Below are positions 11,132-63,826 of a stretch of DNA of 64,000 bases, piece after piece (the stretch's first letter is position 1; the number at the start of each line of letters is the position of its first letter). The translations under genes and the position numbers were made by a program. This DNA is from Antedon bifida (Eukaryota > Echinodermata > Crinoidea > Comatulida > Antedonidae). The DNA lies in the NCBI GenBank assembly GCA_963402885.1, contig OY727094.1, positions 2,668,501 to 2,732,500 on the forward strand, read 5' to 3'. Under the pieces are notes generated by a model that had not been told where the DNA came from, ran no database searches, and saw nothing but the letters and a program-made list of their open reading frames with translations.

Positions 11132-11331
11132 GCTTTGATGTATCCTACATCAAAGCATGACGATGTTTATCTGAATAAACTCTCCGGGCGTTTATTGTTT
11201 TCAGGAGGGTTTTTAGGAGCACCTAGGTACCAAATCATATTTGGTTTCCAGGGACGTATAATAACGAAACGCAAGCGAGTTGACCAATCACAAGCGACTA
11301 TGATGATCTATCGCGCGCCGCCCTGATCATT

Positions 11332-11492
11332 ACGCTTGATTCCCACAAGGACGCAGCACAAGGACGTAAGCGCAACGCAAGTAATTTGACCAATTACGAC
11401 ACGATAGATCATTAACTGCTGTCGCTTGTCATGGTCAACTCGCTTGCGTTGCGCTTACGTCATTGCGTTGCGTCCTAGTGAAACCAAACTTT
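11332..11492. mobile_element. GGTTCCCACTAG MITE, type II
   Basis: Left end GCTTGATTCCCACAAGGACG, right end CGTCCTAGTGAAACCAAACT, arms carrying AACGCAAG and its complement. Copied again at 15273-15433 (tandem unit 2) and at about 24731-24896 (3' flank of copy C). A second, more diverged one follows at about 11766-11905. Confidence 0.7.
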
Positions 11493-19013: not shown

Positions 19014-19345
19014 GACCACTCGATGTACATTTGAGCAAATTGATTATTTCCTAGGCCTACTTTTTAAATTAAATGATACTAGTAGGTACCCGTCCAATGG
19101 ATACATTTTTCGGTTCTAATAGATGATAAAAGGTGCCCCAACTCGAACGGCGCTAGTATCCGGTTTAGGAGGAGATAGAGAAACACTGGCTTAGTGATTA
19201 TAATTAGTGTATAGATAGATAGATCTTTACCTTCTAACATATTTGCTCAGTAATCTTTTTGGTCGTGCTAATACAATGTTTGGTTTAAACAGTCGTAGAG
19301 TATTGACCATACTCATCTTGAGATAATAACCGCTTGCCTTTGTCA

Positions 19346-30084: not shown

Positions 30085-31310
30085 AACCAAGGTTGGTTTC
30101 AACTTGGAAACCAAAAAAAACTTGGTTCCAACTTAGGAACCAAACAACTTGGTTCCAACTTGAGAACCAAACAACTTGGTTCCAACTTAAGAAGCAAACA
30201 ACTTGGTTCCAACTTAAGAAGCAAACAACTTGGTTCCAACTTGAGTAGCAAACAACTTTTTTCCAACTTGGGAACCAAACAACTTGGTTCAAACTTTGGA
30301 ACCAAAAAACTTGGTCCCAACTTGAGAACCAAACAACTTGGTTCCAACTTGAGAACCAATAGATTGGTTCCAACTTGAGAACCAAACAACTTGGTTCCAA
30401 CTTGCGAACCAAACAACTTGGTTCCAACTTGAGAACCAATAGATTGGTTCCAACTTGAGAACCAATAGATTGGTTCCAACTTGGAAACCAAACAACTTAG
30501 TTCCAACTTAAGAAGCAAACAACTTTGTTCCAACTTGGGAACCAAACAACTTAGTTCCAACTTGAGAACCAATAGATTGGTTCCAACTTGGAAACCAAAC
30601 AACTTAGTCCCAACTTGAGAACCAATAGATTGGTTCCAACTTGGAAACCAAACAACTTAGTTCCAACTTGAGAACCAATAGATTGGTTCTAACTTGGAAA
30701 CCAAACAACTTAGTCCCAACTTGAGAACCAATAGATTGGTTCCAACTTGCGAACCAAACAACTTGGTTGCAACTTGAGAACCAATAGATTGGTTCCAACT
30801 TGGAAACCAAACAACTTGGTCCCAACTTGAGAACCAATAGATTGGTTCCAACTTGAGAACCAAAAAAACTTGGTTACAACTTGGTTCCAGCTTGGGAACC
30901 AAACAACTTGGTTCCAACTTGAGAACCAAGCAACTTGGTTCCAACTTGGGAACCAAACAACTTAGTTCCAACTTGAGAACCAATAGATTGGTTCCAACTT
31001 GGAAACCAAACAACTTAGTCCCAACTTGAGAACCAATAGATTGGTTCCAACTTGCGAACCAAACAACTTGGTTGCAACTTGAGAACCAATAGATTGGTTC
31101 CAACTTGGAAACCAAACAACTTGGTCCCAACTTGAGAACCAATAGATTGGTTCCAACTTGAGAACCAAAAAAACTTGGTTACAACTTGGTTCCAGCTTGG
31201 GAACCAAACAACTTGGTTCCAACTTGGGAACCAAACAACTTGGTTCCAAATTGGGAACCAAACAACTTGGTTCCAACTTGGGAACCAAACAACTTGGTTC
31301 CAACTTGCTC
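30085..31310. repeat. 27-bp minisatellite with internal dyad, about 45 units
   Basis: Unit about GAGAACCAAACAACTTGGTTCCAACTT in head-to-tail order, with a variant in which ACAACT is replaced by TAGAT. Each unit contains TTGGTTC and its complement GAACCAA, so both strands look alike and single strands can form hairpins. A roughly 350-base block (near 30660-30870) is repeated at 30970-31180, showing higher-order duplication. Open frames over it are artefacts of a unit length divisible by three. Confidence 0.92.
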
Positions 31311-39568: not shown

Positions 39569-42500
39569 ATGGAACAGTCTAAAAAGATTCTGACTTTCTT
39601 GTGCAGTTTCAGCGAATGTTTATTTTTCGGCGGGCTCACGTACGGTTGGGTAGCGCTCGTATTCGTTTTGAAAGATCGTGGTTTCTTCAGCGACGAATGT
39701 GATGCGGATTCTACTGTTGCGCCACTATTGAACGAGTCGGATGATTCGTGTGGGGGCGTGGCAAATTCAACAGAAGTTTCGTGCCCGGGACAAGATGGTA
39801 AACTGCAAGTGGTTTTCACGGTTGCAGCATTCACTATTAACGCAACCGCATTTATAATAGGGCCGATATATGATAAATATGGAACCAGAATTGTACGCAT
39901 TGTATTCAGGTAAACAGCATAGTGGCATAAATTGAATGAGAACAGAGCATTATTTGTACAATAATAAATGATAACAAATATAGTTGAATGAGAATAGTTA
40001 TGTATTTTGATGTTTCAATTTGTTTTTATGACCTATAGCATTAATTTTTTTAAACATTTTTAAAGTAATTTTTACCCATTTTATACATATTTTGTAAATT
40101 GAAACGCAATTCAGCATTTTTGCTGCTATGTTTTAACCTTTTTGTTTTATGAATAAGAGAACATAGTGTCTTCCATGAGCTGGAGAGTCAAATACAATTA
40201 ATTATTTTAACATATTTGTTTTATAATAAACATAAAGTTTAATTAAATTATTCGTGCCTTAACGATAAGAAATATAGTTAGGGAGAATCGGAAGAATATA
40301 GTGAAAAGTTTGACTTTCCATGAGCTGGGAACTCAAATACAAAATATTCATCATTTGTTTTATTAATAAATGTAAAGTTTAATTTAAATAATCCGGTGTT
40401 TCCATCTTAGAATGTAAAAAACTAGTCCATTCTAAAAGATACCGCTGGCACTGCAATTCTTATCAGCATTGTTGGATTTTTTATATTTGTTTACAAATTA
40501 TTATTTTTTATTTATTTTCAGCGTTTTCTTGGCGTTAGCATTCATTCTGTTAGCTCTCAGTGACCCAGAGAAGCCCAACATTTTATTTCCTGCTACCATG
40601 TTTTTGTCCAGCGGTGGTATCATGATTTTACTCTCCAATATACAGGTAAGATTACACTTGCTTTCCATCCATGACCGCCATAAATAATTTAATGAGCGTT
40701 AATATAAAGTCTGAAGATACCATGATAAAGTGGAATTAATCGTGTAGTTAGTAAAGAAAACAATGAAAAAAATTGTTTCTGATGAAATCACATAATGGAG
40801 AAAATATAAGCAACAAAAAAAAACAACAATAAAATAATCATTATCACAGAAGTATTCAATTATTGTATTAATCTGTTGAAGATAAAATGAATAAATAGTG
40901 GTTAACGCCACAAAAGAGAAAAAAAAATAGCTTTACTATGGATTAAAGGGAACCTATTCCTCTAGGATTATCCTCTCCCAACAACGTTATTATAATTGAG
41001 TTAGCATTGTTGTCAAATACAGGAAATCCTGACTTTGCCATATAACCAGGATGTTGCCTTGGCTAAATCAAAACATTATGCAACCCTCGCAACAAGACTT
41101 CATTTTAGCTTGGTTCCTACTAAAGATGCAACACATGCGAGTTGACCAGTGAAAAGTTTGAACAATTCATCGCTTGTAATTGGTCAAATTACTTGCGTCC
41201 TTTTGTTGTGTCTCTTGTTGGTATTAAGTGTAAAATTAGTAAAAATATGTTTGCAGTAAACCTATCTGTTTCCAAAATACACTTGTGGTTTTACTCAGAC
41301 TGCAAACCTAATTTCATTCAACTTTTATTTCTGGCAAAATGTCCATATGATACATAATAATACAAACAGAGGCGTAACTGCTATGAGCGCTCACTGGCTA
41401 AACCCAGGGGCCCCCGAGCTTATGCCCAGAGGAAAAAAACAGGCATTAAAATATGCCGAAAAAGGCTAAAACGCCTGAGGCCTCCAACGTTGGAGGGCCA
41501 CTTAGGTTTCCTAATCCAGGGGCCTCATGTCTCTGTGTTACGCCACTGAATACAAACAAAAGAAAATAAATACATTGTGTACAATCAACAAATGATGAAG
41601 GAGGACCATATGTTTATTCTGCATACAATAACAAATAAATAAAATACTTGATTTATGTATTTTTTTGTTTAGGTTGGAAATCTGTTTGGACGATGGCGCT
41701 CTACAATAGTTACTGCGTTTAGTGGTTCATTTGACTCGTCTGCATTTGTTATGTTACTGGTTAAGGTAATTTTTTCACACACAAGTTAAATAACATTTAT
41801 TTAATAGTTATTTAAATGTAATTGTTCTTTAATTGTTTTTTTTTATAGAATTCAAAATAATGTGATTGTTGAAATGTTATAAATATGATTTTTCCACTAA
41901 AATATTTTGAACCAATTTTAATAAAGCTGAAGCATTTTGATATTGTTGTTACAGATTGGATATGACGGCGGTGTATCAATGCAAACATCGTTTATCATCT
42001 TGGCTGTTGCCACCCTTGGCTTTAATCTCAACACTTGGATCTTTCTGCCAGTGAAACACATTCCCTGGCCTTTACCCAGTGACTGGGGAAAACCAACCCA
42101 GGTGGATGAAGAAACAAAAGAAAAACAACCGGAACAGGAAGAGATGAAAGTGTATGGTGAATCAGAGAAAGTAAATGGAAGTCATGCTGGTAAGGGTCAA
42201 AGTTCATACAAGAGTCGGCTATCTCTAAACTCCAAAATTCTGAAATAATAATATATATTCTTGAAAACCGATGTTCATGTGACCCTATGGTACGGTTCAT
42301 ATGGCCCTATAGTACGGTTCATATGACCTTATGGTACGGTTCATATGGCCTTATGGTACGGTTCATATGACCCTATGGTACGGTTCTTTATGACCCTATG
42401 GTACGGTTCTTTATGACCCTATGGTACGGTTCATATGACCCTATGGTACGGTTCATATGACCCTATGGTACGGTTCATATGACCCTATGGTACGGTTCTT

Positions 42501-45428
42501 TATGACCCTATGGTACGGTTCATATGACCCTATGGTACGGTTCATATGACCCTATGGTACGGTTCATATGACCCTATGGTACGGTTCATATGACCCTATG
42601 GTAAGGTTCATACGAAATAAGTCCATATAAGTGTCCTTCAGCTATTTATATCATGTAATATATTCAATTCAACTTTCAGACAAAACAGACGATAAAAATT
42701 CAAGTCAATCGCAGCTACATGATCTTCTTGAGCGCGAGTATCCGAACCTACGAACATGTTTTATATCACCTATGTATCTATTGTTGTTGTTATGGCTGTC
42801 GGTGATCCAGTTACGTCATTGGTTCTTTCTGGGGACGTTCAACCCGTGGATAAATGGAATGTCTTGTGATAAAAGCGAAGGTAATTTAAACACAAAATTA
42901 AATTTGTGAATCTCCATATTTGGGGTTAAGGTGTGGGATTTCGAGTGAGTGAGTGGGTGGGTGGGGTTCTTGAGGCTTAGCATTGGTGAGTAAACATCAA
43001 TCAATGTAATTAATGTGTATAGTTCAAGTGTAATAGTATTATCCATTGATGAAAAAAAAATTGCCTTTTATTGTAATACGCATTTGATCTAATTGAGCAT
43101 AAAACTTAAGGAAATTAAATCAATTTAAATAATAATCATTAATTGATTTAGTCATTAATAACATTTCCTCTATCACGTTTTCCAATCAATTAAATCATAC
43201 AAAATTGGAACAAATGTCAGTTTCAGCAATCTATTTCTATAACAGTTAATTACCTGTTGGTAATGATATTTTTTAGTTGTAATTTAAACTTAATAGCTTA
43301 ACTATGGGTTAATAATTAATTCGATGAATGAAGTTAATTATCATTGTCTCACAAAATTGAAAAACTTTTTTTTTATTTTAGCTTCTTATGAGTAATAAGA
43401 TACTGTATATAAGTAAATAATTCAGTTTTTGTTTATATCTAGTGAGTCAGTACACGTCTGCCTTTGCATCGGTGCAGTTCTGTGGTATTTTATTTGCACC
43501 CCTCTGTGGCTTGATACTGGATAGAAACCGCAAGAAGAAAACATCAACTGGAAGAGGTAAATTTGTTTCACTGTTAAATGTCCCTCTGAATATGTATTTC
43601 TGAAGGGAAGGGTTGTAGTGTATGTCACCATATATCCTCTGTTATAATCCCACCCCCTAGAACATGAAATTGGGTCGACCTTGGGGTGTGGGACTATACC
43701 CGAGAAAACCCTGGTTTAAGAAAAAATGATTGATAAAGCATTTCTTGTAAAAACTCATCTGAACTGGTTAGAGAGAGGCTTACATCCAGGCCAAAAGTCA
43801 ATACAGGGACTATACCCGGGGATATGCCTGTTTGTGAAATCAGACATAAAGTAAAGTAACCGAAGTGGGATTATACCCGAGGATATACAGTATATGAATT
43901 TCATTATGGTAATTGAAAACTATCATGAAGTAGGTTTTCATCAAGAAGTAACAATCCAATATACATAAATGTCATTATTAGATGCAAGTGAACGTACATT
44001 CCTTGATGATCTTGAAGACAGCATCTTGGCGTTCGTGGTCACCATCATCATCACTTTGCTCTTTTGTGTCATGATCATTGTCCCGATATTAGAGGTGCAG
44101 TATGTAACGTTCGTTCTACAAGTGTTGAGTCGTGCGTTCTTGTACGGCCTTGCAGCAGCCTTCATCGCCACTGCGTAAGTTTTTTATTTATTTAATCCAT
44201 TAGTAAGTAATACTCAGTACTCAAATCACAAACAATGCCTTTTTGAATAAGACTTAGGTAGTGCCATTTTTGTAAGCATCATGACAATCCTAGAATTGAG
44301 AAAGAGACAGAATCTACTCATTCTACTACTTATATTGTTAACTGTTTGTTAATTGTAGTGGAGCTGTAGCTTGGTGGTTAACATGATTGCCTTCCAATGC
44401 CAAGGTGCAGGGTTCAATCCTGACCTAGTGCCTGGGTTGTAACTCCACTCCCTAAGCCTCAAATGAGACTTAGTTTATAAGCATGATAAATGATAAATTT
44501 ATTTACTTTATTTAATCTTTCTTTATTCTGAAATACACTTTCAATACAATGTACTGATTTCCAAAGTGGTTCAGTTCCTAACTACATAAATGTAAACAAA
44601 ATACAGTATATAAATGGACATAAGAAAGTATAAAATTAAACTATAATTTATCCATCCTGTAATATATATAATATAGTTTGTGCTCTCTGTTGGATGCGTA
44701 TTAAATAAAAAAAAAAAAAAGAAAATCTACCTATTCAACTACTTATATTGTGAATTGTTTGTTAATACTATCTATTTACTGTTTGTAGATTTCCAATGCA
44801 GTACTTTGGTGCTTTGTATGGGTCTGGTATGATTCTGACTGCTCTGTTTGGTCTCCTTCAGTGGCCTTTGTTTCAAATCACCCAAAGTGTATCTGGAGGT
44901 GATCCATTAGCAGTAAGTTGTTCTGTCAAATTAACACCCCCCCCCCCACTCCTCTCTTATCCCCCTCACATCTTTCTTTCCCCTCTCACATATTTTCTCC
45001 TCCTCCCCCCACCCTTTCACCCTCTTCTTTCCGCAGTCATTTCCCTTCACTCTCTTCTTATTTGACTCGCTTGCCCCTCCCACACAAATTTCCCATCTTT
45101 CCTTTCCCTCTCTCACCCCCCCCCCCCCCCCAACCCTTTCAATACCGCTTTTCCTCTCTTCGCACAATCCTGCTTTCCCCCTTGCTTTTCTTTTTCCTTG
45201 CCTCTCTCTCTTTCTGTTATCTCTCCTTCCCTGTATTTATGAAATAAAAACTGATGCTTAGATGAAATGTTCTTGATTGTTTTCTTTCAGGTGAACATAT
45301 TTGTGTTGGCACTCAACTTTGTCCCCTTCCTTCTACCGCTCTATATTCATTTTTATGTGAAGAAGAAGCGTGTTATGATAAGCCAGCAGAACGGTACCGC
45401 AGACCCATTGTCGCCAAGAGTTACTTAA
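39569..45428 (+). CDS. SLC43A3: SLC43A3-like transporter (equilibrative nucleobase transporter 1 type), 9 exons
   Basis: Exons 39569-39909, 40522-40645, 41673-41765, 41955-42189, 42680-42880, 43443-43556, 43982-44174, 44789-44912 and 45291-45428 sum to 1563 nt, 520 aa; all phases match and introns are GT-AG. The protein is a 12-TM major facilitator. Exon 1 has TM1 and an outer loop with two N-glycosylation sequons (NES, NST); exon 3 holds [20 protein letters not shown], where FDSS matches SLC43A3 rather than the LAT3/LAT4 members; exons 4-5 form a long charged cytoplasmic loop; exon 5 has [16 protein letters not shown] and exon 7 [17 protein letters not shown], both family blocks. Human SLC43A3 moves purine nucleobases by facilitated diffusion; substrate here is inferred. 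An acceptor at 39519-39520 suggests a separate 5' UTR exon upstream. Confidence 0.93.
41109..41227. mobile_element. Diverged GGTTCCCACTAG-family MITE, SLC43A3 intron 2
   Basis: AGCTTGGTTCCTACTAAAGA at the left, GAGTTGACCAG, then CGCTTGTAATTGGTCAAATT and a decayed right end TTGTTGGTATTAAG. Older than the other copies. Confidence 0.55.
41367..41548. mobile_element. hAT-type MITE, 182 bp, with 8-bp target duplication
   Basis: Left end CAGAGGCGTAAC, right end the inverse GTTACGCCACTG. AATACAAA occurs directly on both sides (41359-41366 and 41549-41556). An 8-bp duplication plus CAG...CTG termini is the hAT pattern. Interior is GC-rich (GGGGCC) and non-coding. It lies in intron 2 of the SLC43A3-like gene. 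Confidence 0.88.
42270..42615. repeat. 22-bp satellite in SLC43A3 intron 4
   Basis: About 15 copies of CATATGACCCTATGGTACGG plus TT, with a second unit type in which CATATG is replaced by CTTTATG. Ends 65 bases before the exon 5 acceptor. Confidence 0.9.
44359..44510 (+). mobile_element. tRNA-derived SINE in SLC43A3 intron 7
   Basis: GGAGCTGTAGCTTGGTGGTT gives an A-box-like TAGCTTGGTGG, and GGTTCAATCC, about 35 bases later, is a good B box. The order and spacing are those of a Pol III promoter from a tRNA. The body cannot fold into a full tRNA, so this is a SINE head and not a tRNA gene. Confidence 0.7.
44936..45230 (+). repeat. 300-base polypyrimidine tract, SLC43A3 intron 8
   Basis: Nearly pure C/T on the plus strand, with C runs at 44936-44948 and 45115-45131. 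It ends about 60 bases before the exon 9 acceptor. Confidence 0.85.
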
Positions 45429-49188: not shown

Positions 49189-51726
49189 ATGGCAGAACGA
49201 TGGGTCGGACGTGTTGCCCTGGTAACGGGTGCGTCGTCGGGTAACGGAGAGCAAATCGCTCGTAGATTGGTTGAGCAAGGGATGAAGGTGGTAACCTGCG
49301 TAAAGGCTGATGTATTTCATCAACTTAAGGTCAGGTTATGTTAGTTATTTTTAATCTATTTTTTTGTTGATATTTTATAATGAAATGTTTGAAACGTTTA
49401 ACACCAAAATGAGTTTTCCAATCGATTGGCAGTAGCTTACTTTTTATCATAAACTGGCATTTCATGTAACCAGAACCCTGCGGAGATTGTGGTTCATGTA
49501 CATTCAAAGACAAAAGTAACAAAACAATGGCAAGAGATAATAAAGATAATGGACGAAGGCAGATCCAAGAAAGATGTGAATCTTGTGACGGGATTGCCTT
49601 AACAAATACATAACTATATAGTAATTGTATTGAGCCGATATACTACAAACTCTAGACGTAGAGTATAATAATCCTTTAATATCAATCTTTATATTTGACT
49701 TATTTTGTAACAGGCAATAGCTGATGAACTGAACGCCAAACACTCACCAGGACTGATGCACCCACTTGTCTGTGACGTAAGCAAGGAATCGGATATCTTA
49801 GCTATGTTCAAGGAGATCCAGGAGAAGTTTGGCGGAGTTGACGTCTGTGTGAACAACGCTGGTCTTGCTCTTGATAGCCCATTGCTGTCTGGAAAGACGG
49901 ATAGATGGCAATATATGTTAGACGTAAGTACCGTTCTACCTTTAAAATATCCATTAACGTAACGCAAAGACGTAGACACAACGCAAGCGAGTTGACCAAT
50001 GACAAGCGACAGTTCGAATAATTCATCACTTGTGATTGGTCAAATCCCCTACGTTGCGCGTTACGTCGTTGTGTTGCGTCTTAACAGACGATATTAACAA
50101 ACACAGCGTCATGTCGTGCAAGAAGAAGCGGGAAATTCAAAAGAAGTGTTTACCATGCTGCTGCTGAGCCTGCATCAACGGGGAATTCACGCGTGGCCTT
50201 CCTTTCGCATTCTAGCTATGGTTTTGTTTGTCTTAAATATGGTAATCTAAACACAATCCTACCTGACCTTTATTTTTCCCAACCGTTTGTTCTACAGGTG
50301 AATGTAATGGGTGTGGCTATCTGTACAAGAGAGGCAGTGGCTCAAATGATGAAAAATGGAGTCGACGATGGACACATTATCTTCTTAAACAGGTACGTAC
50401 TCATTGATTGTTATAGACCATATTGATTATTAATTAGTTAAATTCTACTTTTCATCAACTTTTACACATAAAAACAAATTAGCTGCTTTACTATTGATTA
50501 TTTCTGTCAGTGTCGTCCATCTAGTTGTGCCCAGTAGGTCGCAGGTTAGATCACCCATCCCCCCCCCTACCCCAATTTACCCATTTACAAAATATCAAAT
50601 AGTGAGCCTTCTTTCTCCGAATAATGTTTTCCCTGATATATTTTGCGAAGTACTTCACTCAGTTTCTGAGTGTTTTCTTTTTGTTTGTTTGTTAGTATTG
50701 CCGGCCATCGTATAGGTGTTGGATCAACCATTGGGTTTTACAGTGGAACCAAATACATGATAACGGCTATATCAGAAGGAGTAAGGCAAGAACTGAGATT
50801 GAAAAATTCTCACATTAGAGTTACGGTACGATTGTTTTTTTAGTATTATTGATTTGTAGCAAATGGCCGAAAATATTTAATTTTATATATAGGATTTGGA
50901 AGTGGTTTGAAAAGCCTTTAGTGCAGTATGTTGCTCGTCCTGTGATTGATGACCAAAATGATAATGACGTCAACCAACATGATAATGACGTCATGGTATT
51001 GGTGGCGCAAAATGATGAAAAAAAGGGCGCACTAATAATGTGATGCATTAATTACATTGATGATGATGATGTCAGATGATGATGGTGATGATGATTATGA
51101 TGAAGATGATAACGATGAACAGACGGCGTTGAATATATAATTATGATGTGAGGATGCGAGGAATGATGATGAGTTTATGTATAATGATTATGACTCAATT
51201 TTTTCTCTTTAAGAATATATCACCTGGAAAGGTAGAGACCCAATTTTACCCTACTCTGTTCGGAGAAGAAAGAGCAAAGAAGATGGCCTCAGAGTTTCCG
51301 GTTTGTTACATTAACAAGTTCATTATTAATTTAATGTCAATAACCTTATTATAATATAGCAAAATGCGTCTGTGACTGCAAAACTATATTTATTTTCACG
51401 CTGACAAAGTTTAGTCTTTAGTCCCATTTGAAAAATGCAATGTAAAATAGGCCTAATATGTTATGGGCATAACATCGTGTTTGATTAGTGATAATTAATA
51501 TATTGTTTTTTAAATTTCAGTATCTGCAGCCGCAGGATATTGCCAGTTCGGTACTACATGCACTGCACGCGCCGCCACACGTACAGGTAAACACGTAGGC
51601 CTACCTTTGTTAATTTACTCAAGATAGAGATTTTAGAATTATAAATTACCGTCGTGTATCTAACCTTATATTTTATTATTTCAGATCTTTGAAGTGCTCA
51701 TTCGTCCTGTTGAACAAAAAGACTAG
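49189..51726 (+). CDS. DHRS11: DHRS11-like short-chain dehydrogenase/reductase, gene 1
   Basis: Seven exons: 49189-49329, 49714-49923, 50298-50392, 50696-50825, 51214-51300, 51521-51586 and 51685-51726 (771 nt, 256 aa; human DHRS11 is 260). Classical SDR layout: cofactor motif TGASSGNG (residues 13-20, with Asn where Ile is usual), NNAG, catalytic Ser about 149 (SIAGH, its codon split by intron 3), Tyr about 164 and Lys about 168 in YSGTK, then ISPG. DHRS11 reduces ketosteroids and carbonyl compounds with NADPH in the cytosol; substrate here is unknown. It is the most divergent of the four: exon 1 ends CVKADVFHQLK rather than GCANNG. Its Ser-Tyr loop is the longest (15 residues apart). A MITE sits in intron 2 (49961-50085). 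Confidence 0.93.
49961..50085. mobile_element. GGTTCCCACTAG-family MITE (type II interior), intron 2 of DHRS11-like gene 1
   Basis: AACGCAAAGACGTAGACACA at the left, TTGACCAATGACAAGCGACA, then the complement and GTCGTTGTGTTGCGTC at the right. Outer termini are lost. Confidence 0.6.
51058..51120 (+). repeat. GAT microsatellite, intron 4 of DHRS11-like gene 1
   Basis: Imperfect GATGATGATG run with interruptions. Confidence 0.8.
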
Positions 51727-52548: not shown

Positions 52549-55500
52549 ATGATGGCAGATCGTTGGGTTGGACGTGTGGCTTTGGTAACTGGTGCATCTG
52601 TAGGTATTGGTGCAGCTATCGCTAAAAAGTTAGTAAAACATGGAATGAAGGTGGTTGGATGTGCGAACAATGGAATCAATAAAGTCAAGGTATAAATGTT
52701 TAATTGTGGGGTAATCTATGAGGTATAGTGTAGAAATATAGATGGCTTATCGGGGATTATGGAGATTGAAAAGGCGAACATTTATAATAATCCATAGATT
52801 AAGCAATAAAAGACATGTCATCGTGAGTGACACCGTGAAATGTCACAAAGTTCTAGGAAAGTTATACCATGGAGGAATTAGTTTATTTTCCAAACCAACA
52901 CGTTGTCGACGAATTATCCTGTTGGTATTCCATTATTTTTCTGTTATACGCCCCAAATCCACACGCGTCGATCCACACTCATCGTAGGCCTAGTAACGTA
53001 ATATCTAACGTAATATCTAACAATTCATATATGTTTTTATTAAATAATATTTTTAGGCAATTGCAGAAGAACTAAAATCCCAGAATGCCCCTGGTCTTCT
53101 CCATCCTGTGAAATGTGACGTCAGTAAAGAGGATGAAATCTTAGCCATGTTTGCTGAGATCAAAGACAAGTTTGGAGGAGTTGATGTCTGTGTTAACAAC
53201 GCTGGACTTTCAATTGATTGTCCATTGATGTCCGGCAAAACGGAGGACTGGCGACATCTACTAAATGTAAGGTTTTCTGTACAGTTCGTGTAATGTTTTA
53301 CAAACTATTCTTATAGCACTACTTCTAATGCGCACTAGGAATTAGCTCGTACGGACATAGGTCTATGTGACGTTCACGTGTTAATTAGGGCCCGTTTATA
53401 AGATAACAAACAGATATACATTTTGGTTATAAAAGTAAATGAAAGGAAAGTTTTCATTCTAGAACTATGGATAGCCATTTATTGTCCCAATGTTTGTTTA
53501 TAACATGTATTGCTATCCACAATATACACAATACAATACATTATATTTTGAAAATTAACAAAATCATACCGAAACTAAATACTTGTACATTTATGGTATA
53601 ACTGAGGATAATCATTTAAGCTTGTTTCAGAAGGGGTCATCGGTTTCAGAAGAGTTTGCACTTACTAATCACGTGTCATTTGTTTGGACTTGTGAAAATA
53701 TAATTTCATCAAAGGCAGCATAGATGATTATCCTATAGTTCTAGGATGAAAACTTGTTTGATTTCTCTGGTTTTAATATGTACGAAAAATACACATTTTG
53801 TCTAGTTATCGTCGATCGTTAACGGTCTGGTAGGCCCATAAATGGGTCTTATCATTAATCACTAATAAATTCAAAAGCAGCAGAGAAAACAACAGTCATC
53901 ATGTATGGCGCCCCAAGCCATGCTTAGTTGTGTTATCAAAAGGAAATATGCACTTATTTAAAACGTCAATACAGCATGTTTAGGTGGTGGACAATAGTGG
54001 AAAATTCTAGTGGTAATGAACGAGTCAAGCATTAACCGTTCCTTGTGTACTGTGACACTAAATATAGTCATGGAGGTAAAAAATTATTACCCATTATTAT
54101 TTATTTCCTCCATGATATAGGTAAACGTTTTAGGACTTTCTATCTGTACAAGAGAGGCCCTAAATCAAATGACAGAGAGGGGCGTGGATGATGGCCATAT
54201 ATTTCACTTAAGCAGGTATATATTTACTGTTTTTGAATACATTATGATTTATGTATTATATTTCATTATATTTTGCAATTTATTTTTTGTAATATAATTT
54301 ATGGGAAACACAAGTCAGTCTGTGACCTGGCTTTTCTGAACAACAAGCAAAAACACGGATCATGTTTTCATCGCGTGAGGGTTGAACATGCAATTAGATC
54401 ATATTTTTATATAATTTATCTTGTGGCTCAACCTTTATTTTAAAGTGTTTTATTTATTTTTTTTCAGCGTTGGTGGACATTTCGTATTCTCATCCGTCTC
54501 ATTTTACTGTGGAACAAAACACATGGTTAGAGCTTTGACGGAAGGACTTCGACAAGAACTGAGAGCGAAGAAATCAAACATCAGAATCACGGTTAGCAGA
54601 AATGTTTAAGCTTGGTTTCCACTAGCAACACAACATACGCAACATAACAAAATGCCCTTCCAATAACTGTGTGTGCCCCCGCCGGTGTGAAATCAAACCT
54701 GCCATGTTTGCAGCACTGTTGCGTCGTCGGTTCCCACTTGTGATTACGCAATTACAGCACGTTGCGTTCTAGTGGGAACACGCTTTAGGGCTCACCACGG
54801 CACTAAGTTGAGAATGTATAATATCGACAAGGGGTCTAGAAACAGAACGGTAAGCTCTGTCTACACTCATCAAACGTTATGAATCAAATATGATGTGCCC
54901 ATATATGGACATGATGATGTCATATCACTACCATATCTAAGCATATCACTACCATATTTGAGCACGTCACACCTTTTTTGTCGAACTAGTTTGATAGTGT
55001 AGACAGAGCTTTATACAAAAAGATAGTATATGACCGCGTACCCATTAATGGCAGGGGTTATTAAAGCCTTCGTGCGGAGTTTTTTTAAACTAAAAAACAA
55101 AATAAAAGTCCCAATAATACGTGGATACATTCTGTGTGATACGTTTCCAACCTCTTCAGTGTGTACACAAATCACTCTGCTGCAGTTACTGCAGTAACTA
55201 TATTTTGTTTATCAATTAATCATACATTGTTTATTGTGACTGCCGCAAGTTATATCATACATTATATTGCCGTTTAAAAATGTAATTACTGCGGTAACTG
55301 CAGTATATTTTTTACATGATCGATAAAGTACTGACCTCTTTCTTCCACAGAGCATATCTCCTGGTTATGTTCAAACGGAATTTCTACAGAGGATGGTAGG
55401 CGAAGAAATTGCTAAAAAATATACCTATGAAATGAAGGTACGTTCTTCTTACAATAATGATAAATTCAAAAAAGGTCAAGGGCCAGGTCATTTTGGAGAA

Positions 55501-55900
55501 GATTAATATATACAGAGGTGTGACGTGACGTAGGCCAAATTATCTAGTGATTCGGGAAGGACCGCGCATGGATGGTTTTAAACACAATTTCCTGGGTCAT
55601 GTATGAACTTTATTCCCCCAACCCTCAACCTCTTTAGCTTTTAGAACCTATGTCTTCTTTTTCTAGGGTCTTGATGCTGAAGATATTGCTGACGCGTTAG
55701 CATATGCTTTGCACGCTCCTCCTCATTGCCAGGTAAGTTTCATAAAGTAATGCTAATAATTGTTTACAACATTTTGTCAGAATCAACATAATATTACGTA
55801 GAATTTACGTCAGTCCTTCGTCGATTTTACTTTTATTCATTGTCTTTTTTTTAAACAGGTTCATGATATCCTTTTACGACCAACTGACCAGAAGCAGTAA
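52549..55900 (+). CDS. DHRS11: DHRS11-like short-chain dehydrogenase/reductase, gene 2
   Basis: Seven exons: 52549-52689, 53057-53266, 54121-54215, 54468-54591, 55351-55437, 55667-55732 and 55859-55900. Two ATGs stand in a row (52549 and 52552); the second aligns with genes 3 and 4 and gives 253 aa. Counting from it: TGASVGIG at 13-20, NNAG at 93-96, catalytic Ser 148 (codon AG|C split by intron 3), Tyr 161 and Lys 165 in YCGTK. Cytosolic NAD(P)H-dependent oxidoreductase by family. The residue after the second strand, Arg in human DHRS11 (GCAR) and a cofactor contact, is Asn here (GCANNG), so cofactor preference may differ. Exon 1 is almost identical to that of genes 3 and 4. Intron 4 contains a type I MITE and a TGTAGACAGAGC MITE. 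Confidence 0.94.
54608..54788. mobile_element. GGTTCCCACTAG MITE, type I, intron 4 of gene 2
   Basis: TTAAGCTTGGTTTCCACTAG at the left, GTTCTAGTGGGAACACGCTTTA at the right, TTA present at both borders. It begins only 17 bases after the exon 4 donor. Confidence 0.82.
54852..55013. mobile_element. TGTAGACAGAGCTTTA MITE, best-preserved copy
   Basis: TAAGCTCTGTCTACACTCAT at the left, GATAGTGTAGACAGAGCTTTA at the right; the middle has ATGTGCCCATATATGG and inverted CACTACCATAT units. Intron 4 of DHRS11-like gene 2. Confidence 0.82.
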
Positions 55901-55975
55901 TATAGACTCCAATATCAGAAGCAGACATAGCAGGACGGAATGCGTACGCATCATTCCTAATGTTCTAGACACAAC

Positions 55976-56355
55976 AACTCAAGGGCGTAACGCAACGTAA
56001 GTTTAGTTGACCAATCACAAGTGATGCATTATTACTGTCGCTTGTCATTGGTCAACACGCTTGCGTTACGTTTACGTCCTTGCGGTACGTTCTAGTGGGA
56101 ACCAAGTTAACCAATGACAAGCGACAGTTCAAATAACCCATCGCTTGTGATTGGTCAATTCACTTGCGTTGCGTTACGTCCTTGTGTTGCGTCTCTAGTG
56201 GAAACCAAGCATTAAAGATGCAACACAAGGACGTAACGCAGCGTAAGTTTGGTGACCAATCACAATTGATGAATTATTACTGTCGCTTGCCATTGGTCAA
56301 CACGCTTGCGTTGCGTTTACGTCCTTGCGTTACGTCATGAGAACCAAGTTTAATG
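55976..56355. mobile_element. Cluster of two to three type II GGTTCCCACTAG MITEs
   Basis: Successive blocks 55976-56107, 56108-56216 and 56217-56355 repeat the ACCAATCACAAGTGATG arm, its complement, and ACGTCCTTGCGTTACG ends. They lie directly in the 3' flank of gene 2. Another full copy is at 56547-56702. Confidence 0.7.
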
Positions 56356-56546
56356 GGGGATGGAACTTCTCGCGTGACTCTTTCCATGAGCTGCACGGAG
56401 AAAGATGTTATTAATAATAATTATAATGCGGATTATACTGACGTACCCTTTGTTGGGTAGCTCCTCTTTAGTAGTGGAGTTGGAACTTGGATAAGGTTCA
56501 TCAACCATTTTAAAAAAAGGACTAAATAGGCCTATCTTTCATTTAA

Positions 56547-56702
56547 GCTTGGTTCCCACTAGAGACACAACGCAAGGACGTAGACGCAACGCATGCGAGT
56601 TGACCATGACAAGCGACAGTTCGAATAATCCATTGCTTGTAATTGGTCAAATCACTTACGTTGCGTTACGTCCTTGCGTGTCCTAGTGGGAACCACGCTT
56701 AA
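56547..56702. mobile_element. GGTTCCCACTAG MITE, type II, clean copy
   Basis: Left TTAAGCTTGGTTCCCACTAG, right CCTAGTGGGAACCACGCTTAA, 156 bases. A good reference copy for the family: arms contain GAGTTGACC, GACAAGCGACAG and the inverse. Confidence 0.88.
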
Positions 56703-56744
56703 ACCCTAAAGTTTTCAAAATGTTTTACTGATTTTGTGTAAATA

Positions 56745-56815
56745 TAATAATAATAATAATAAATATAATAATAATGATAATAATAATAATAAAATTAATA
56801 ATATAATAATAAATG
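56745..56815. repeat. AAT-rich microsatellite
   Basis: Imperfect ATAATAATA run between DHRS11-like genes 2 and 3. Confidence 0.8.
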
Positions 56816-57489
56816 TAACTGGTTTTCTAATTTATAATTGGTGGTGTTAAATCTGTGAAATTAAAGGAATATTTTATTCTTTTTATAATTAATTCTCATA
56901 TGTAATTAACGAGTCTTAATATTACGTTTGTGCGTTTGGTTTTGGCACTTGACTGTGATGGTAAGATACACAGTAGAACTCCCCCAACTTAGGACACCTC
57001 TATTCAGGGGACACCTCTGTTATGTGGACACTTTCCTGTGAAATAAATAAACAAGAGTACCGTATTCTGTATTGTATATGTTTTGAGAATTGATTTATAG
57101 TTGCATGATGCGCGCGCACAAACGACTTCGGGATTTGCGCGCGTGTAAAATGGTATGTACGTAAATAACGGATGGAATTCTGCAAGGGGCAGACGTGATG
57201 TTATATTAATGCCATGTCATCATCACGTATGGACATAATATGCATTTTTGTTCATATAAATGCTAAATCATTCACAACCTATTTTATGAGAGGTCATTCC
57301 AAAGGTCATTGAAAATAATAAATTTTGAGTGAAATTATATATATGTTATACACACACAAGCTCTAACTTTATTTAAACAATAGTAAGTATACACGAACCA
57401 AAGATGCAAGAAGTACCAAAATGCTGAGTCACTCATGAAAGGTGTGGTTATATCGGCACAGGATCGTCGAAATTTATGTTATTCTCATC

Positions 57490-59631
57490 ATGGCAGATCG
57501 TTGGATAGGACGTGTGGCTTTGGTAACTGGTGCATCTGTAGGTATTGGTGCAGCTATCGCTAAAAAGTTAGTAAAACATGGAATGAAGGTGGTTGGATGT
57601 GCGAACAATGGAGTCAATAAAGTCAAGGTACTGTATTTGTTGAAACAAAGACAATGTCTTAATTAAAATCTTTTAATTAAAACGTTCCATAAATGTATTA
57701 TAGCTTTATAGGATTATCTGCCGCTCATCATTCAGATTAAACGTAATATTTTTTTAATGTATATAAAGGCAATTGCAGCAGAACTGAAATCCCAGAATGC
57801 ACCTGGTCTTCTTTATCCGGTGAAATGTGACGTCAGTAAAGAGAATGAAATCTTATCTATGTTTGCTGAGATCAAAGAAAAGTTTGGAGGAGTTGATGTC
57901 TGTATTAACAACGCTGGTCTTTCAATTGATTGTCCATTGATGTCCGGCAAAACAGAGGACTGGCGACGTCTACTAGAGGTATGGTATAGTAGATAAGGAC
58001 TATTTTAATTTTTTTTAATAATGAATCGATATAATTCCTGAAAATCCATGCACTACGCCCAAATAGAGGCGTTGGTTCTTGAATCAACTAATAACGTTTT
58101 ATTTATTGTGTATTTTTCCACTTCAGGTAAACGTTTTAGGCCTTTCGGTTTGTACAAGAGAGGCTCTGAGTCAAATGGAGTCAAAAGGAGTCGATGATGG
58201 CCATATTTTTAACTTAAGCAGGTATGAATTTCGCATTCTGCCCGTTATTTTTTTTTTATATAAGAAAAACACAGATTCGTTTGTATATTTAAAAATGTCA
58301 CTATTTTTATTGTTTCCAGTTTGGGTGGACACAAAGTGTTGGAGGGTATTCCTTTTTACTGCGGAACAAAACACATGGTTACAGCTTTGACGGAAGGACT
58401 TCGACAAGAACTGAGAGCAAAGAAATCAAACATCAGAGTCACGGTTAGAACGGTTGACTATATTATTACATTTATGGCGCGCGTTGTGAGGGGAGAATTG
58501 GATTTTGCATTTTGACGCGCGATCGCTTCCCTTAAAGGTGGGTGTGGGGAGGGGATCTGAGTCTCCGACGCGACTTGTACGAGAAGTATCTTTTAACCGA
58601 GATAAGAGAAAGTGAAAGATGCAATGTGGGGTTAACACATATAACCAACATTTTTACAAAGAACTGAATTTATTTGTTCATAAACATTGTGTTTTATGTT
58701 TTCTTTACTACAGAGCATATCTCCAGGTTATGTTAAAACTGAATTTATGAGCAGAATGCTTGGTGAGGAAATGTCAGAGCAAATTTTAAGCACAATGAAG
58801 GTAGAGAATGTCTTGCTGTTTTTGCACAAATGCGTCTGGGGTCCATTCGTTACTCTCAGGAGTCGGACGGCGCCCCGTACTAGACTGGTATGATCCCTGG
58901 GAAACTGTTTTCGAATAAACGGGGCGTTTATTGTTGGGGAGGGTTTTTAAAGGGGCGTTTATTCGAGGGAGGCGTTTATTTGTTTGGGTGTAATATGGTA
59001 ACATGTATAATAAAATACATTCTCCCTAAATATGAAAAAAAGTGATAAAAATACATTAGAAATTATAATAAAATGCTTAGTCAATATTGTAGATCATAGA
59101 AGTCAATGAATTCTACTACAAATAGTTGTTATAATACATAATTGTGTGTATATGCATGTGATGGGCGTTTATTTGAGGGGAAAAATAAAGGCCCCTGGGC
59201 GTTTATTTGAAGGGGACGTTATTTCCAAACGAGGTTCTCCGAGGGAGGCGTTTATTCGAATAAATACGGTATTTATAACATCTAGGAATGTAGGCTACGT
59301 CGCGGTGTAATATGCTTGTTAATAATAATGATAGTTCATAATGTTTTTTTCTCGATTTTAAATTTTTAATATAGAGTCTTACCCCTGATGATATTGCCAA
59401 TGCATTGGTTCATGCTCTACACGCACCACCACATTGTCAAGTAAGTTTATTAACTCAAAAAATATTTTTATATTAGGCCTATAACTTCAGGCCGCCACAG
59501 AAACGGCTTCCCGTTCTTAATTATAAACATTTACTAAAGGTACTAGCATTTATTACGTCAATATTTAATTTTTTAAAATTTATTTACAGATTCATGACAT
59601 CATTTTAAGACCAATTGACCAGGACACCTAA
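57490..59631 (+). CDS. DHRS11: DHRS11-like short-chain dehydrogenase/reductase, gene 3
   Basis: Seven exons: 57490-57627, 57769-57978, 58127-58221, 58320-58443, 58714-58800, 59375-59440 and 59590-59631 (762 nt, 253 aa), with the same boundaries and phases as gene 2. Cofactor motif TGASVGIG, NNAG, catalytic Ser 148 (SLGGH), Tyr 161 and Lys 165 (YCGTK), then SISPGYVKTEF. Exon 1 differs from gene 2 at three of 138 bases. The 3' part of exon 4 is also nearly identical, but the segment between catalytic Ser and Tyr (SLGGHKVLEGIPFY) and the exon 5 lid region are different. Intron 5 holds a GCGTTTATT TIR element. Family role: cytosolic carbonyl or ketosteroid reductase; substrate unknown. Confidence 0.94.
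58895..59273. mobile_element. GCGTTTATT TIR element, intron 5 of gene 3
   Basis: TTTTCGAATAAACGGGGCGT on the left, GGCGTTTATTCGAATAAATACGGTAT on the right; same family as 47113-47585, with a TATGGTAACATGTATAAT interior in both. Confidence 0.75.
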
Positions 59632-59689
59632 TGAGCGTATCGAAAAATGAGGTGAATATGAACAAGGCAGTGTGCCCATCACCATCGGA

Positions 59690-60665
59690 TCCATGAGGCT
59701 ACGAGGTTCACGCAGCAGTCCTGTTAGGCCTGTATACAAAAAAAGTTACGGATTAATGACGATAGATCGATTTATAGTAAGTATTAGTGTCATGACTTAC
59801 ATAAAACATAAAACATATTGCAAACTCTATTGTAATACCTTACTTGAGCTATTGTAACATAATTTGGGGAAATAGTAGTCAAACTCTAATGAAAAGAGTT
59901 CAAACTATCCAAAACAGAACAGCTCGAATCGTGTGTGGTCTAACATGGGACACACCTAGTAGTGAGGCACTAAGACAAATTAATTGGTCAACTTTATTTT
60001 ATCAAGATAGATATGAATGTTGTATGGTTATATATAAGGTTTTGACAGATAATGCCCCACCTTACCTAAATAATGTATTTACATACAATGATATAAATTA
60101 TAATCTAAGGCACAGTGATACACATCTATTTATCCCGAAGCCAAAAACCGATTTTAAAAAACGAAGTCTGTCTTATCGTGGAGCAATTATATGGAATTGT
60201 CTCAATGTTGATACCCTTCCAAATTCAGTTAAGTTGTTTAAAACGTATCTGAAAAATGCATTGTAAAACATAATGGTATGGTAATCTACGATGGTGTACA
60301 TCCAACTTTTAAAATGGCTAAATATCATGTAAAATGTGTGTTTTATCACTATTATTTTAAGGTAAATGAAATCAAAAAGATTTATTATGTATTACAGTAG
60401 AATCCCCATAAATTATACACTTCGATAAGGGTTCCCGTTTACACGGGAAGTACCGGTATGGTGTACCCTAAATAGAGGTGTCAGGTGAAGGGGATTCTGC
60501 TGTAATTTTGTTTCTTTTCAATTTCAATTTTTTCGTTTCTTTCGTATTTATATGGTGTTGGTTTTTTTTTGTAATACAGTATCACGAACTTGTGTAAAAA
60601 CAATCAATGTTGATTGAACGAGTTGTGCTGTACATCAGTCTCGTGTCTAAATAAAGTTTATATAT
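59690..60665 (+). mobile_element. Non-LTR retrotransposon fragment (CR1/L2-like C-terminal end)
   Basis: A plus-strand frame to a stop at 60266 encodes LSYCNIIWGN, RVQTIQNRTARIVCG and APPYLNNVF, the post-RT block also seen in the LINE at 19346-20413 but from a clearly different lineage. Further upstream the frame is broken. A pogo-like MITE (60395-60502) lies in the 3' part. It sits about 60 bases past the stop codon of DHRS11-like gene 3. Confidence 0.8.
60395..60502. mobile_element. pogo/Tc1-type MITE, 108 bp
   Basis: CAGTAGAATCCCCATAA at the left and AAGGGGATTCTGCTG at the right, flanked by TA on both sides. The CAGTAGAA...CCC terminus and TA target are typical of pogo/Tigger-related MITEs. 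A half copy is at about 56970-57020. Confidence 0.75.
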
Positions 60666-61275
60666 ATACTTTAATACGTTTACTGTAGTATGGTATTAAT
60701 TGAATGATGATTATTTGTGATGTCACGTGGCTCATCATTTATGGTTTAATGGTTTTAAATTTTATGAATGAAGGGCATATTGACGAATAATTCGTAACCT
60801 CTGATACCAAGGCAAGATTGTCTTGCTGATATTAATTTATCATGTAGGTCACTTATACAATATATAATAATATATGATTAGGCATATATTGATTAAAATA
60901 AATGTTTTGTTTTGAGAAAAAAATGTTTTTGTCACAATTTCTGGCGTTTTAACAATGAATCGCTCAATTTCTGTGGGTTTGGTTTTACATTTTCTTCTAC
61001 ACCGGTCCGAAGATAAATATTTGTTAACGCTTTTTAACTCTTTGAAATACAAACAAATCATATTAAGCGGCTGTGTTTATACAGTCCGAATTGGTCAAAG
61101 TTCCAGATTTTAAAGAGTGATATTTCCAGGGGCTATGTGGTGGCGCTTTATGCAAATTTGTAAGTAAAAATGGTTTTACGCTTGACTGCACACGGTCTCA
61201 GACTCACGCTGTTCTCTGCTCTCCGACGAGTAGGCCTATTTATTTACTAAGTTTTAGGATTGTTTTGAATATAAA
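60666..61275. other. Upstream region of DHRS11-like gene 4
   Basis: No recognised feature except AT-rich sequence; likely promoter and 5' UTR of gene 4 near 61180-61275. Confidence 0.4.
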
Positions 61276-63826
61276 ATGGCAGATCGTTGGGTTGGACGTG
61301 TGGCTTTGGTAACTGGTGCATCTGTAGGTATTGGTGCAGCTATCGCTAAAAAGTTAGTAAGTCATGGAATGAAGGTGGTTGGATGTGCGAACAATGGAGT
61401 CGATAAAGTCAAGGTAGGCTAGCATTTTAAGTACGCGTACTACTAGCTAGGCCTATACTACTATATCATAAATGTTATTATTTATATGAACCTTGATAAA
61501 TCGTTTAAATGTAGTTTAAACATAGTAGTAGTTCAGGAAGCCTTGTATTTTGTATTGGTGCTGTGCCAAGTATATATTTATTTAGAATAATAAATAACAA
61601 ATACTAGGCCTAAATAGGAATACTGGTACAGTACTGTACAATGATGAAACTATAGAAAAATATGTTATTTGTAAAATTTCAGTAAAATTTCTAATTATTG
61701 TTACATAAAAGGCAATTTCAGAAGAACTGAAATCCCAGAACGCCCCTGGTCTTCTCCATGCAGTGAAATGTGACGTTACTAAAGAGGATGAAATCTTAGC
61801 CATGTTTGCTGAAATCAAAGAGAAGTTTGGCGGAGTTGATGTCTGTGTTAACAACGCTGGACTTGGATTTGATTGTCCATTGATGTCCGGCAAGACCGAA
61901 CATTGGAGACACATGCTGGAGGTGAGTTAGAAATATTTTTAATTATTTCTTTTGAAATCTACCAAAAGTGTTCAGTACGGTTGAGCACTTTTTTACAGAG
62001 GCCTTTGAAAACCCAGAGATTGTTCCCTTTTCTTGTGGAAACTTTATTTCTTGTCATCACTGATGTTTAACTATTTTTTAGGTAAATGTGTTGGCTCTTG
62101 CGATCTGTACACGAGAATCTCTAAACCAAATGGCAGAGAGAGGCGTAGACGATGGCCATATATTCCACTTGAACAGGTTAGACGTAGAATCATGACAGCC
62201 AATTATATATCAAAGTGTCGAAAGTGTCACGATTAAGCCAAAAAAAATGAATGACATGGTTCTTAATCTAAACATATTCTCTCATCTTAACCAACTCTGG
62301 TGATATTTTTATTCTCTTATATTTTCACAAAGCAAGATTTTCCATAATGTTAATCTAAGATAGAGGGCAGTCTAAGATAGATGGCAGTTTAAGATAGAGG
62401 GCAGTCTTAGATAGACGGCAGTTTAAGATAGAGCGCAGTCTAAGATAGAGGGAAGTTTAAGATAAAGGGCAGTCTAAGATAGAGAGCAGTTTAAGATAGA
62501 GAGCAGTTTAAGATAGAGAGCAGTATTAGATAGAGGGCAGTTTAAGATAGGGGATAGTCTTAGATAGAAGGAAGTCTTAGATAGAGGGCAGTCTTAGATA
62601 GAGGGCAGTCTAAGATAGAGGGCAAGCCAGCAAAGTTTGCAACATACTTGCATCCTATGCTGACATTGTCGATTATGACCGGCTGAGCGATAAAAGTTGA
62701 CCAAAATCTTGCACCAACTTTTTTAAAGGTGCTGATGAGAACCATATAATTCAAACACTGAATAAATAGTAAATTGATGTTCTATTTGCCTTTTCAGTAC
62801 AAGTGGTCACCGTGTAGCAGGCTCAGGATTTTACTGCGGAACGAAGTATATGGTTACAGCAATGACAGAAGGACTTCGCCAGGAACTACGAAACAAGAAA
62901 TCTAACATCAGGATCACGGTAAGTTCTTTAGTGTTACATCAAGGGTCACTACACTTGGGGGGTTGCCTTACCCATTGGGAAAACCCACGTTACTTTTAGT
63001 TCTCTTTATCTTAATTAAAGTGCGTTTACACTAATAACTTTTATTTATTTATTATTATCAGAGTATTTCTCCAGGTATGGTTAAAACTGAGTTTGCAATA
63101 AGGATGAGAGGAGAAGAAAAAGGCAACGAAATATATAGCCGAATGAAGGTAAAACATTCTAAAGATTGAGGTAACAAGGCCATTGAGGGTCAGTCTCCCA
63201 GGCAATAGACCACTGATCTAGGCCCTCCATAGTGTACATCACATCATGGAGGTATAAAATAATAATGTTATACCTCCATGATCACATCTATGGGCTGTTG
63301 TATAGTGCTTAAATCTACTGTGTGTGCTTTGTTGTTGTAGAACTTAGAGGCGGATGACATTGCTAACTCCTTGATCCATGCATTGCATGCCCCTCCACAT
63401 TGTCAGGTAAGTTTGAACTAAGTTTATAGGAAGATATATTTAGTATCTCAAGTAATGTAATTAAGTTGATGGTAACATTAATGATTCATTCAAATTATGT
63501 AAAGAAGAGAGGGGGGGGCTTACCATGACCTTTGACCTTGACGACATAACGAGCTGCACCCACCCACCAAGTTTGAAGACAGATGTGGTGATATCAATGT
63601 CTACTAGATGTTCATTAATACACCCCAACTTACTCCATTTTATAGATAATGCTTTTTTACCTGCACACAATTTACAGTCTCTCAATTTATTGTTGTTAAC
63701 TTAGGGAGTGATATAAAAGGTATTTATAGTGGTCCTTAAGCTTAACTGGAAACTAAGGAACAATGTTTTATTTTTTGTTTACAGATTCATGATATAATTA
63801 TGCGACCAACAGAACAAAGGAGCTAA
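61276..63826 (+). CDS. DHRS11: DHRS11-like short-chain dehydrogenase/reductase, gene 4
   Basis: Seven exons: 61276-61413, 61712-61921, 62082-62176, 62798-62918, 63062-63148, 63341-63406 and 63785-63826 (759 nt, 252 aa). TGASVGIG, NNAG, catalytic Ser 148 (STSGH), Tyr 160 and Lys 164 (YCGTK); the Ser-Tyr spacing of 12 is the shortest of the four. STSGHRV resembles human DHRS11 (SMSGHRV) more than the other copies do, so this may be nearest to the ancestral active site. Exon 1 is almost the same as in genes 2 and 3. Intron 3 contains a 17-bp satellite. A poly(A) signal follows at 63928-63933. Confidence 0.94.
62345..62630. repeat. 17-bp satellite in intron 3 of gene 4
   Basis: About 16 copies of TAAGATAGAGGGCAGTC with variants (TTTAAG, TCTTAG, GAGAGC). 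Confidence 0.9.

Follow-up and report, generated by a model that had tools for sequence, protein, structure and literature searches.

Probable exon-limited gene conversion among tandem DHRS11-like genes of Antedon bifida

Interlocus gene conversion that is largely restricted to exons, next to an intron that cannot be aligned, has been described for the GOT1Sd and GOT1Sr genes of Tigriopus californicus, and islands of divergence lie within the homogenised coding sequence of GOT1p1 and GOT1p2, as reported in the sections of Willett (2013; PMC3728101) that treat these genes. The same sections describe the Teshima-Innan model of neofunctionalisation, which predicts diverged segments amid homogenised genes. 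Here we describe four complete DHRS11-like genes (g1 through g4) of Antedon bifida that form a + strand tandem array, with seven exons each, at the right end of a 64,000-nucleotide stretch of contig OY727094.1 (positions 2,668,501 to 2,732,500; hereafter the window). How sequence identity is distributed along these genes is very probably explained by exon-limited gene conversion between the loci g2, g3 and g4. The array appears to share exon-limited conversion, diverged islands and unalignable introns with what those sections present of the GOT1 genes, although it belongs to another enzyme family, involves a three-gene group with no alignable intron, and has a second gene cluster as an internal control whereas population data are available there. 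A search of one literature library for DHRS11 combined with gene conversion gave a single paper, whose title is unrelated, and the array is a new example of a known process.

Synonymous divergence is distributed unevenly along g2, g3 and g4 (Table 1). We report uncorrected Nei-Gojobori proportions of synonymous (pS) and nonsynonymous (pN) differences, because Jukes-Cantor-corrected synonymous divergence becomes infinite where sites are saturated; proportions above 1 arise from path averaging over few sites. Exon 1 differs at only 3/138 bases between g2 and g3 and 4/138 between g2 and g4, a recount that agrees with an earlier note on this DNA, and at 5/138 between g3 and g4. Specifically, synonymous differences in exon 1, set against those in exon 3, the segment for the loop between the catalytic serine and tyrosine (at the start of exon 4) and exons 5 through 7 taken together, number 1/33 versus 43/71 for g2/g3 (Fisher p 5e-9), 0/34 versus 49/70 for g2/g4 (p 4e-13) and 1/34 versus 57/70 for g3/g4 (p 2e-15), where all counts are rounded pS counts and exon 6 of g3/g4 is set to 16/16. 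Exon 2, whose partial homogenisation among g2 through g4 (pS 0.15-0.38) was absent from the earlier note, differs from the same segments at p 6e-7, 5e-5 and 4e-6 for g2/g3, g2/g4 and g3/g4, and synonymous divergence in sliding windows of 20 codons climbs at codons 101-121. The control pairs g1/g2, g1/g3, g1/g4 and cA/cC, the last from the second cluster, give no such contrast (p 0.21-1 for exon 1; 0.12-1 over the exon 1 and exon 2 tests).

Table 1. Synonymous divergence (pS) by segment for the three pairs of g2, g3 and g4
Segment	g2/g3	g2/g4	g3/g4	Remark
Exon 1	0.03	0.00	0.03	0-1 differences on about 34 sites
Exon 2	0.15	0.30	0.38	
Exon 3	0.57	0.70	0.79	
Loop	0.78	0.80	0.90	8-9 synonymous sites
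Rest of exon 4	0.09	0.58	0.53	
Exon 5	0.59	0.58	0.65	
Exon 6	0.82	0.81	1.04	
Exon 7	0.30	0.46	0.72	8 sites

In a GENECONV-like permutation test (six genes, 15 pairs, 2000 shuffles, p uncorrected for the number of pairs), the exon 1 run over all polymorphic columns was reached in 0/2000 shuffles for each of g2/g3, g2/g4 and g3/g4. On silent columns, where the runs span exon 1 into exon 2, the figures are 0/2000 for g3/g4 and 2/2000 for g2/g4. In this test as a whole, neither the g1 pairs nor cA/cC gave a signal below 0.05. The genes g2, g3 and g4 carry stretches of synonymous identity although the rest of their sequence is diverged, which is a hallmark of interlocus conversion.

If g2 through g4 were simple recent duplicates, or if their 5′ parts had recently been shuffled by unequal crossing over, then sequence common as recently as exon 1 should retain its introns. 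None of 36 intron comparisons (six pairs of g1 through g4), nor any of the 5′ and 3′ flanks, rises above the best of 100 shuffles, and with blastn at 0.01 none of 18 intron comparisons among g2, g3 and g4 yields a match, versus 9 of 12 within the second cluster. Introns as similar as exon 1, which the earlier note had named as the mark of simple duplication, are thus not observed, despite an exon 1 pS near zero. The tandem arrangement agrees with recent duplication, as does the presence elsewhere in the window of a 3.94 kb duplication at 99.6%. However, recent copies do keep their introns and surroundings, both in that duplication and in intron 5 of cA and cC, and we reject recent duplication as extremely unlikely.

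The borders of the identical blocks are close to those of the exons. Near-identity around exon 1, and around the end of exon 4 in g2/g3, ends 3-10 bases from the exon edge; past the 3′ splice border of exon 1 the shared sequence extends just 3 bases into the intron, and upstream of the ATG about 9 bases are common, in g2/g3 alone. Conversion templated by spliced RNA or cDNA would yield such exon-bounded tracts directly, and would fit the fact that several exons are affected. However, exon-limited homology predicts identical borders, all four genes keep their introns, and some of the bases that differ in exon 1 are close to its ends (positions 16, 18, 124 and 127; others are at 86 and 87). Moreover, intron 5 is identical at 111/111 bases between cA and cC (C11:3011637-3011747 and 3019238-3019348). 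This stretch is a recent tract that includes a whole intron, and it speaks for a DNA template there. A spliced template is therefore quite unlikely. Introns 1, 2 and 3 of this pair have only 15-30-base matches, and intron 6 has none.

The second cluster lies on contig C11 and came from searches of the 315.6 Mb genome (27 contigs), in which match counts are lower bounds. Exon 1 DNA finds at least 8 places (g2, g3, g4 and five on C11), and the exon 2 peptide at least 8 matches, namely g1 through g4, three in the C11 cluster and a single weak match on contig C9 (E 5e-4). In the approximately 18.7 kb downstream of g4 (L020, L021), no additional family exon was found at E 0.01. The C11 genes are cA, cB and cC. 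Because exon 5 of cB is not recognisable, this gene, which is probably a pseudogene, enters the pS comparisons but neither the trees and codon models nor the tests based on distance and permutation. Within C11, exon 1 pS (0.10-0.24) is similar to that of exon 2 (0.12-0.20), and exon 1 pS reaches 0.36-0.43 between the clusters and 0.69-0.76 to g1 (0.69-0.72 for g1 versus g2 through g4). Thus, exon 1 is not fixed synonymously in this family. This bears on the proposal that a regulatory or RNA element constrains exon 1 at the nucleotide level and maintains identity without exchange. The 0-1 synonymous differences in all three pairs, and a somewhat low exon 1 pS between g4 and the C11 genes, are what such constraint would produce, but g1 and the C11 genes change freely at these sites and the shared bases stop almost at the exon borders. 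We rejected synonymous constraint on these grounds and consider it very unlikely.

Two orphan, truncated exon 1 copies of 77-84 bases also lie on C11 (L018:8913-8993 and L018:5468-5551, both on the - strand); they begin 589 bases ahead of the start of cC exon 1 and 392 bases ahead of that of cB exon 1. About 25 upstream bases are similar and the sequence after them appears unrelated by eye; the copies are possibly debris of unequal exchange, or conversion donors. Tandem repeats fill much of the intron that directly precedes the loop exon (intron 3) in g4 (17-base unit, window 62354-62624) and likewise in cB (about 29-base unit).

Exon 4 combines a diverged loop segment with a shared 3′ part. 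Intron 3 splits the catalytic serine codon, and thus the loop starts at the exon 4 edge. The first 34, 34 and 31 bases of this exon in g2, g3 and g4 are strongly different, with loop sequences as printed in the earlier note, and the Ser-Tyr spacings given there for g1 through g4 (15, 13, 13 and 12 residues) are confirmed in both the proteins and the alignment. The nearly identical 3′ part that the note ascribed to all three genes holds for g2/g3, where the last 90 bases differ at 4/90, but not for g2/g4 (18/90) or g3/g4 (17/90). For g2/g3, synonymous differences in these bases number 2/22 versus 28/47 in the loop plus exons 3 and 5 (Fisher p 7e-5). Within the loop, they number 6/8 (g2/g3), 7/8 (g2/g4) and 7/8 (g3/g4), similar to exons 3, 5 and 6 (p 0.70, 0.43 and 1.0). 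At synonymous sites the divergence of exons 3, 5 and 6 comes close to that of the loop, with exon 7 less diverged, and the loop is thus no lone island. The earlier note had held that synonymous divergence high in the loop and low in the homogenised blocks would leave tract borders as sufficient explanation. This is the pattern we find, with the loop resembling the unconverted exons, and it is the outcome that the note had set against special evolution of the loop.

Amino acid change does peak in the loop, where pN among g2, g3 and g4 is 0.49-0.54, the highest of all segments (0.27-0.34 in exon 5, 0.24-0.27 in exon 7), versus only 0.23 for g1/g4. High variability of this loop is usual in short-chain dehydrogenases/reductases (SDRs), according to the portion of PMC10579966 that deals with it. 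In a codon model for six genes on a fixed tree, mean loop omega is 0.258, compared with 0.11-0.18 in other segments and 0.19 gene-wide; a loop omega of 1 is rejected (2dlnL 7.9, p 0.005) and one of 0.19 is not (p 0.61), although 13 columns with uncertain gaps and saturation leave small power for single-site selection. Diversifying selection on the pocket, one of two causes that the note had suggested, is therefore rejected as the main cause. The other, gene conversion homogenising the rest of the gene, is supported in a narrower form: it takes in exon 1 and a large part of exon 2, and in the g2/g3 pair alone also the final 90 bases of exon 4, but not the whole rest.

Selection might still act by a different route. 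Under a Teshima-Innan type of neofunctionalisation, converts in the loop or exon 5 would be purged while the cofactor half is shared. The unconverted segments do include both pocket-lining regions, the loop and exon 5, whose pN among g2, g3 and g4 exceeds that of every other segment, with exon 7 close behind, and the cofactor motifs TGx3GxG and NNAG sit in exons 1 and 2. However, exons 3 and 6, neither of them a known pocket segment, have likewise escaped conversion, as has every intron; the loop resembles these exons in synonymous divergence, its mean omega is below 1, and its variability is reportedly nothing unusual for the enzyme family. The model, as outlined in those sections of PMC3728101, also predicts that the divergent region around selected sites is narrower than a conversion tract, whereas here most of the gene, with its introns, is unconverted and no narrow peak is seen: the converted flank is on the 3′ side only, and in g2/g3 only, while the sequence 5′ of the loop, namely intron 3 and exon 3, is unconverted. 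We consider this explanation unlikely. The same low confidence attaches to the broader view of a modular family, in which conversion refreshes the cofactor-binding half (exons 1 and 2) and selection shields the substrate half (loop and exon 5). If true, a tandem array would keep several substrate specificities on one common scaffold.

Judged by distance, the nearest relative of g4 changes along the gene. We took the p-distance from g4 to g2/g3 minus that from g4 to cA/cC, with 95% intervals from 2000 codon bootstraps. This difference is -0.123 [-0.185,-0.067] in exon 1 and -0.094 [-0.158,-0.036] in exon 2, where g4 is nearer g2/g3, and +0.083 [0.037,0.129] in exons 3 through 7 pooled and +0.250 [0.056,0.444] in the loop, where g4 is nearer cA/cC. 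Hence the swapped catalytic loop of the earlier note is the reverse of what we observe. An exchange of loops between genes is rejected, given that the g4 loop is nearer the C11 genes; it is exons 1 and 2 that appear to have been exchanged. The loop would be older, unconverted sequence, and it is the scaffold that has probably been exchanged in exon-sized tracts.

Several observations weigh against exon-limited conversion as we describe it, beginning with the fact that all data come from one genome. The C11 introns mostly keep matches under 35 bases at exon pS of about 0.05-0.25; because introns decay this quickly in the family, their dissimilarity is weak evidence alone. Of the six segments of exons 3 through 7 taken singly, the loop alone yields a distance interval that excludes zero; the interval of exon 5 touches zero, and zero lies inside those of the remainder of exon 4 and of exons 3, 6 and 7. 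The exons 3-7 tree places g4 with C11 at a modest 82% bootstrap (67% on protein). Rooted approximately unbiased (AU) tests on these exons fail to reject g4 with g2/g3 (AU 0.109) while rejecting g2+g4 and g3+g4 (AU about 0.001), with exon 1 no tree of the four tested is rejected, and exon 3 plus the loop slightly favours g4 with g2/g3. Since the AU tests reveal no significant conflict, our argument is built on distances and synonymous counts rather than on topology. The loop counts themselves are based on 8-9 synonymous sites and depend on where gaps are placed. In the permutation test, silent columns give no significance for g2/g3 (392/2000), and one inter-cluster pair, g2/cA, has a nominal signal (41/2000) from a short exon 2 run over all columns. 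Finally, exon 1 pS between g4 and the C11 genes is rather low (p 0.036 for g4/cA and 0.065 for g4/cC; 0.017 and 0.031 when the contrast is with exons 3, 5 and 6), which may reflect mild constraint or an older exchange between clusters.

On the favoured explanation of exon-limited conversion, g1 through g4 would descend from old tandem duplications of a classical SDR gene of DHRS11-like type. Ectopic (interlocus) conversion in short tracts, repeated among g2, g3 and g4, would have copied exon 1 recently and exon 2 less recently or less completely, and would have copied the last 90 bases of exon 4 between g2 and g3. Exons 1 and 2, together with the helix-coding part of exon 4, would be conserved enough to pair and be copied. 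We propose that tracts stay inside exons because only protein-constrained exon blocks keep pairing homology, and that introns, the loop and most remaining exons are too diverged and therefore continue to diverge. The loop, placed between the non-homologous intron 3 and the conserved FY-x3-K block, would consequently fall just outside the exon 4 tract, and its length differences would likewise keep it there with older differences retained. We infer that exon 1 calls for at least two events and exon 4 for one; a DNA template, borders set by the limits of homology and the order of events given here would complete this mechanism.

The four gene models (Table 2) are in frame, with open reading frames of 252-256 residues, and all 24 introns (24/24) are GT-AG and at corresponding positions. 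With g3 as the query, a Pfam scan matches PF00106 (adh_short) at 162.6 bits against a gathering cut-off of 26.6, and a PDB sequence search gives 1xg5_A as the top match, near full-length (E 2.1e-77, 263 bits; runner-up 135 bits). The g1, g2 and g4 proteins align with g3 over their entire length. This PDB entry was deposited as ARPG836 and is, we assume, human DHRS11. DHRS11 is an NADPH-dependent ketosteroid reductase. The TGx3GxG and NNAG motifs, the catalytic Asn and Ser, and YxxxK are seen by eye in all four proteins, and the SDR motifs and catalytic Ser, Tyr and Lys coincide in the g3/1xg5 alignment; the roles of these motifs and residues are as given in the relevant portion of PMC10579966. 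Judged by sequence, g1 through g4 are classical SDRs of DHRS11-like type. The Ser-Tyr spacing of 15 in g1 equals that in the 1xg5 sequence, whereas the loops of g2 through g4 are shorter by 2-3 residues. A further difference is that ART after strand 2 in 1xg5 becomes ANN in exon 1 of g2 through g4 (e.g. 57490-57627), and also in the C11 genes. The ART position presumably has a role in NADPH preference, and the predicted loss of a basic residue there may have altered that preference.

Table 2. Window coordinates of the DHRS11-like genes and their homogenised or unconverted segments
Feature	Position	Strand	Remark
g1 DHRS11-like SDR gene	49189..51726	+	7-exon model; outside conversion group
g1 exons	49189-49329, 49714-49923, 50298-50392, 50696-50825, 51214-51300, 51521-51586, 51685-51726	+	
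g2 DHRS11-like SDR gene	52552..55900	+	7-exon model
g2 exons	52552-52689, 53057-53266, 54121-54215, 54468-54591, 55351-55437, 55667-55732, 55859-55900	+	
g3 DHRS11-like SDR gene	57490..59631	+	7-exon model; best PDB sequence match 1xg5_A
g3 exons	57490-57627, 57769-57978, 58127-58221, 58320-58443, 58714-58800, 59375-59440, 59590-59631	+	
g4 DHRS11-like SDR gene	61276..63826	+	7-exon model
g4 exons	61276-61413, 61712-61921, 62082-62176, 62798-62918, 63062-63148, 63341-63406, 63785-63826	+	
g2 exon 1	52552..52689	+	homogenised; 105 consecutive identical bases with g3
g3 exon 1	57490..57627	+	homogenised
g4 exon 1	61276..61413	+	homogenised; 85 consecutive identical bases with g2
g2 exon 2	53057..53266	+	partly homogenised; pS 0.15 to g3, 0.30 to g4
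g3 exon 2	57769..57978	+	partly homogenised
g4 exon 2	61712..61921	+	partly homogenised, except end (alignment codons from about 101)
g2 loop segment	54468..54501	+	split catalytic Ser codon to codon before FY; unconverted
g3 loop segment	58320..58353	+	unconverted
g4 loop segment	62798..62828	+	unconverted
g2 exon 4 last 90 bases	54502..54591	+	tract common with g3, 4/90 differences
g3 exon 4 last 90 bases	58354..58443	+	tract common with g2

The array serves as a worked example, with an internal control, of how exon-limited conversion can mimic the swap of a single loop between paralogues. Attempts to date these duplications or to build gene trees would go astray if whole coding sequences were used, with exon 1 seeming very recent and exons 3 through 6 old. 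The array may also present, on a single cofactor scaffold, a naturally occurring series of DHRS11-like pockets.

Elsewhere in the window, positions 5641-26632 of the - strand hold at least three GT29 sialyltransferase-like exon copies in recently duplicated DNA, including the 3.94 kb tandem duplication mentioned above (11132-15075 / 15073-19005, 99.6%); only in this region, compared with the DHRS11-like cluster, are long exon surroundings duplicated too. Open frames at 59805-60266 (between g3 and g4) and 19322-19945 have no Pfam match at 0.001, and we take them, from a resemblance that Pfam does not confirm, to be like a retroelement reverse transcriptase tail. Large minisatellites occupy window positions 30093-31307 and 42273-42612, with 27/53/106-base and 22-base units.

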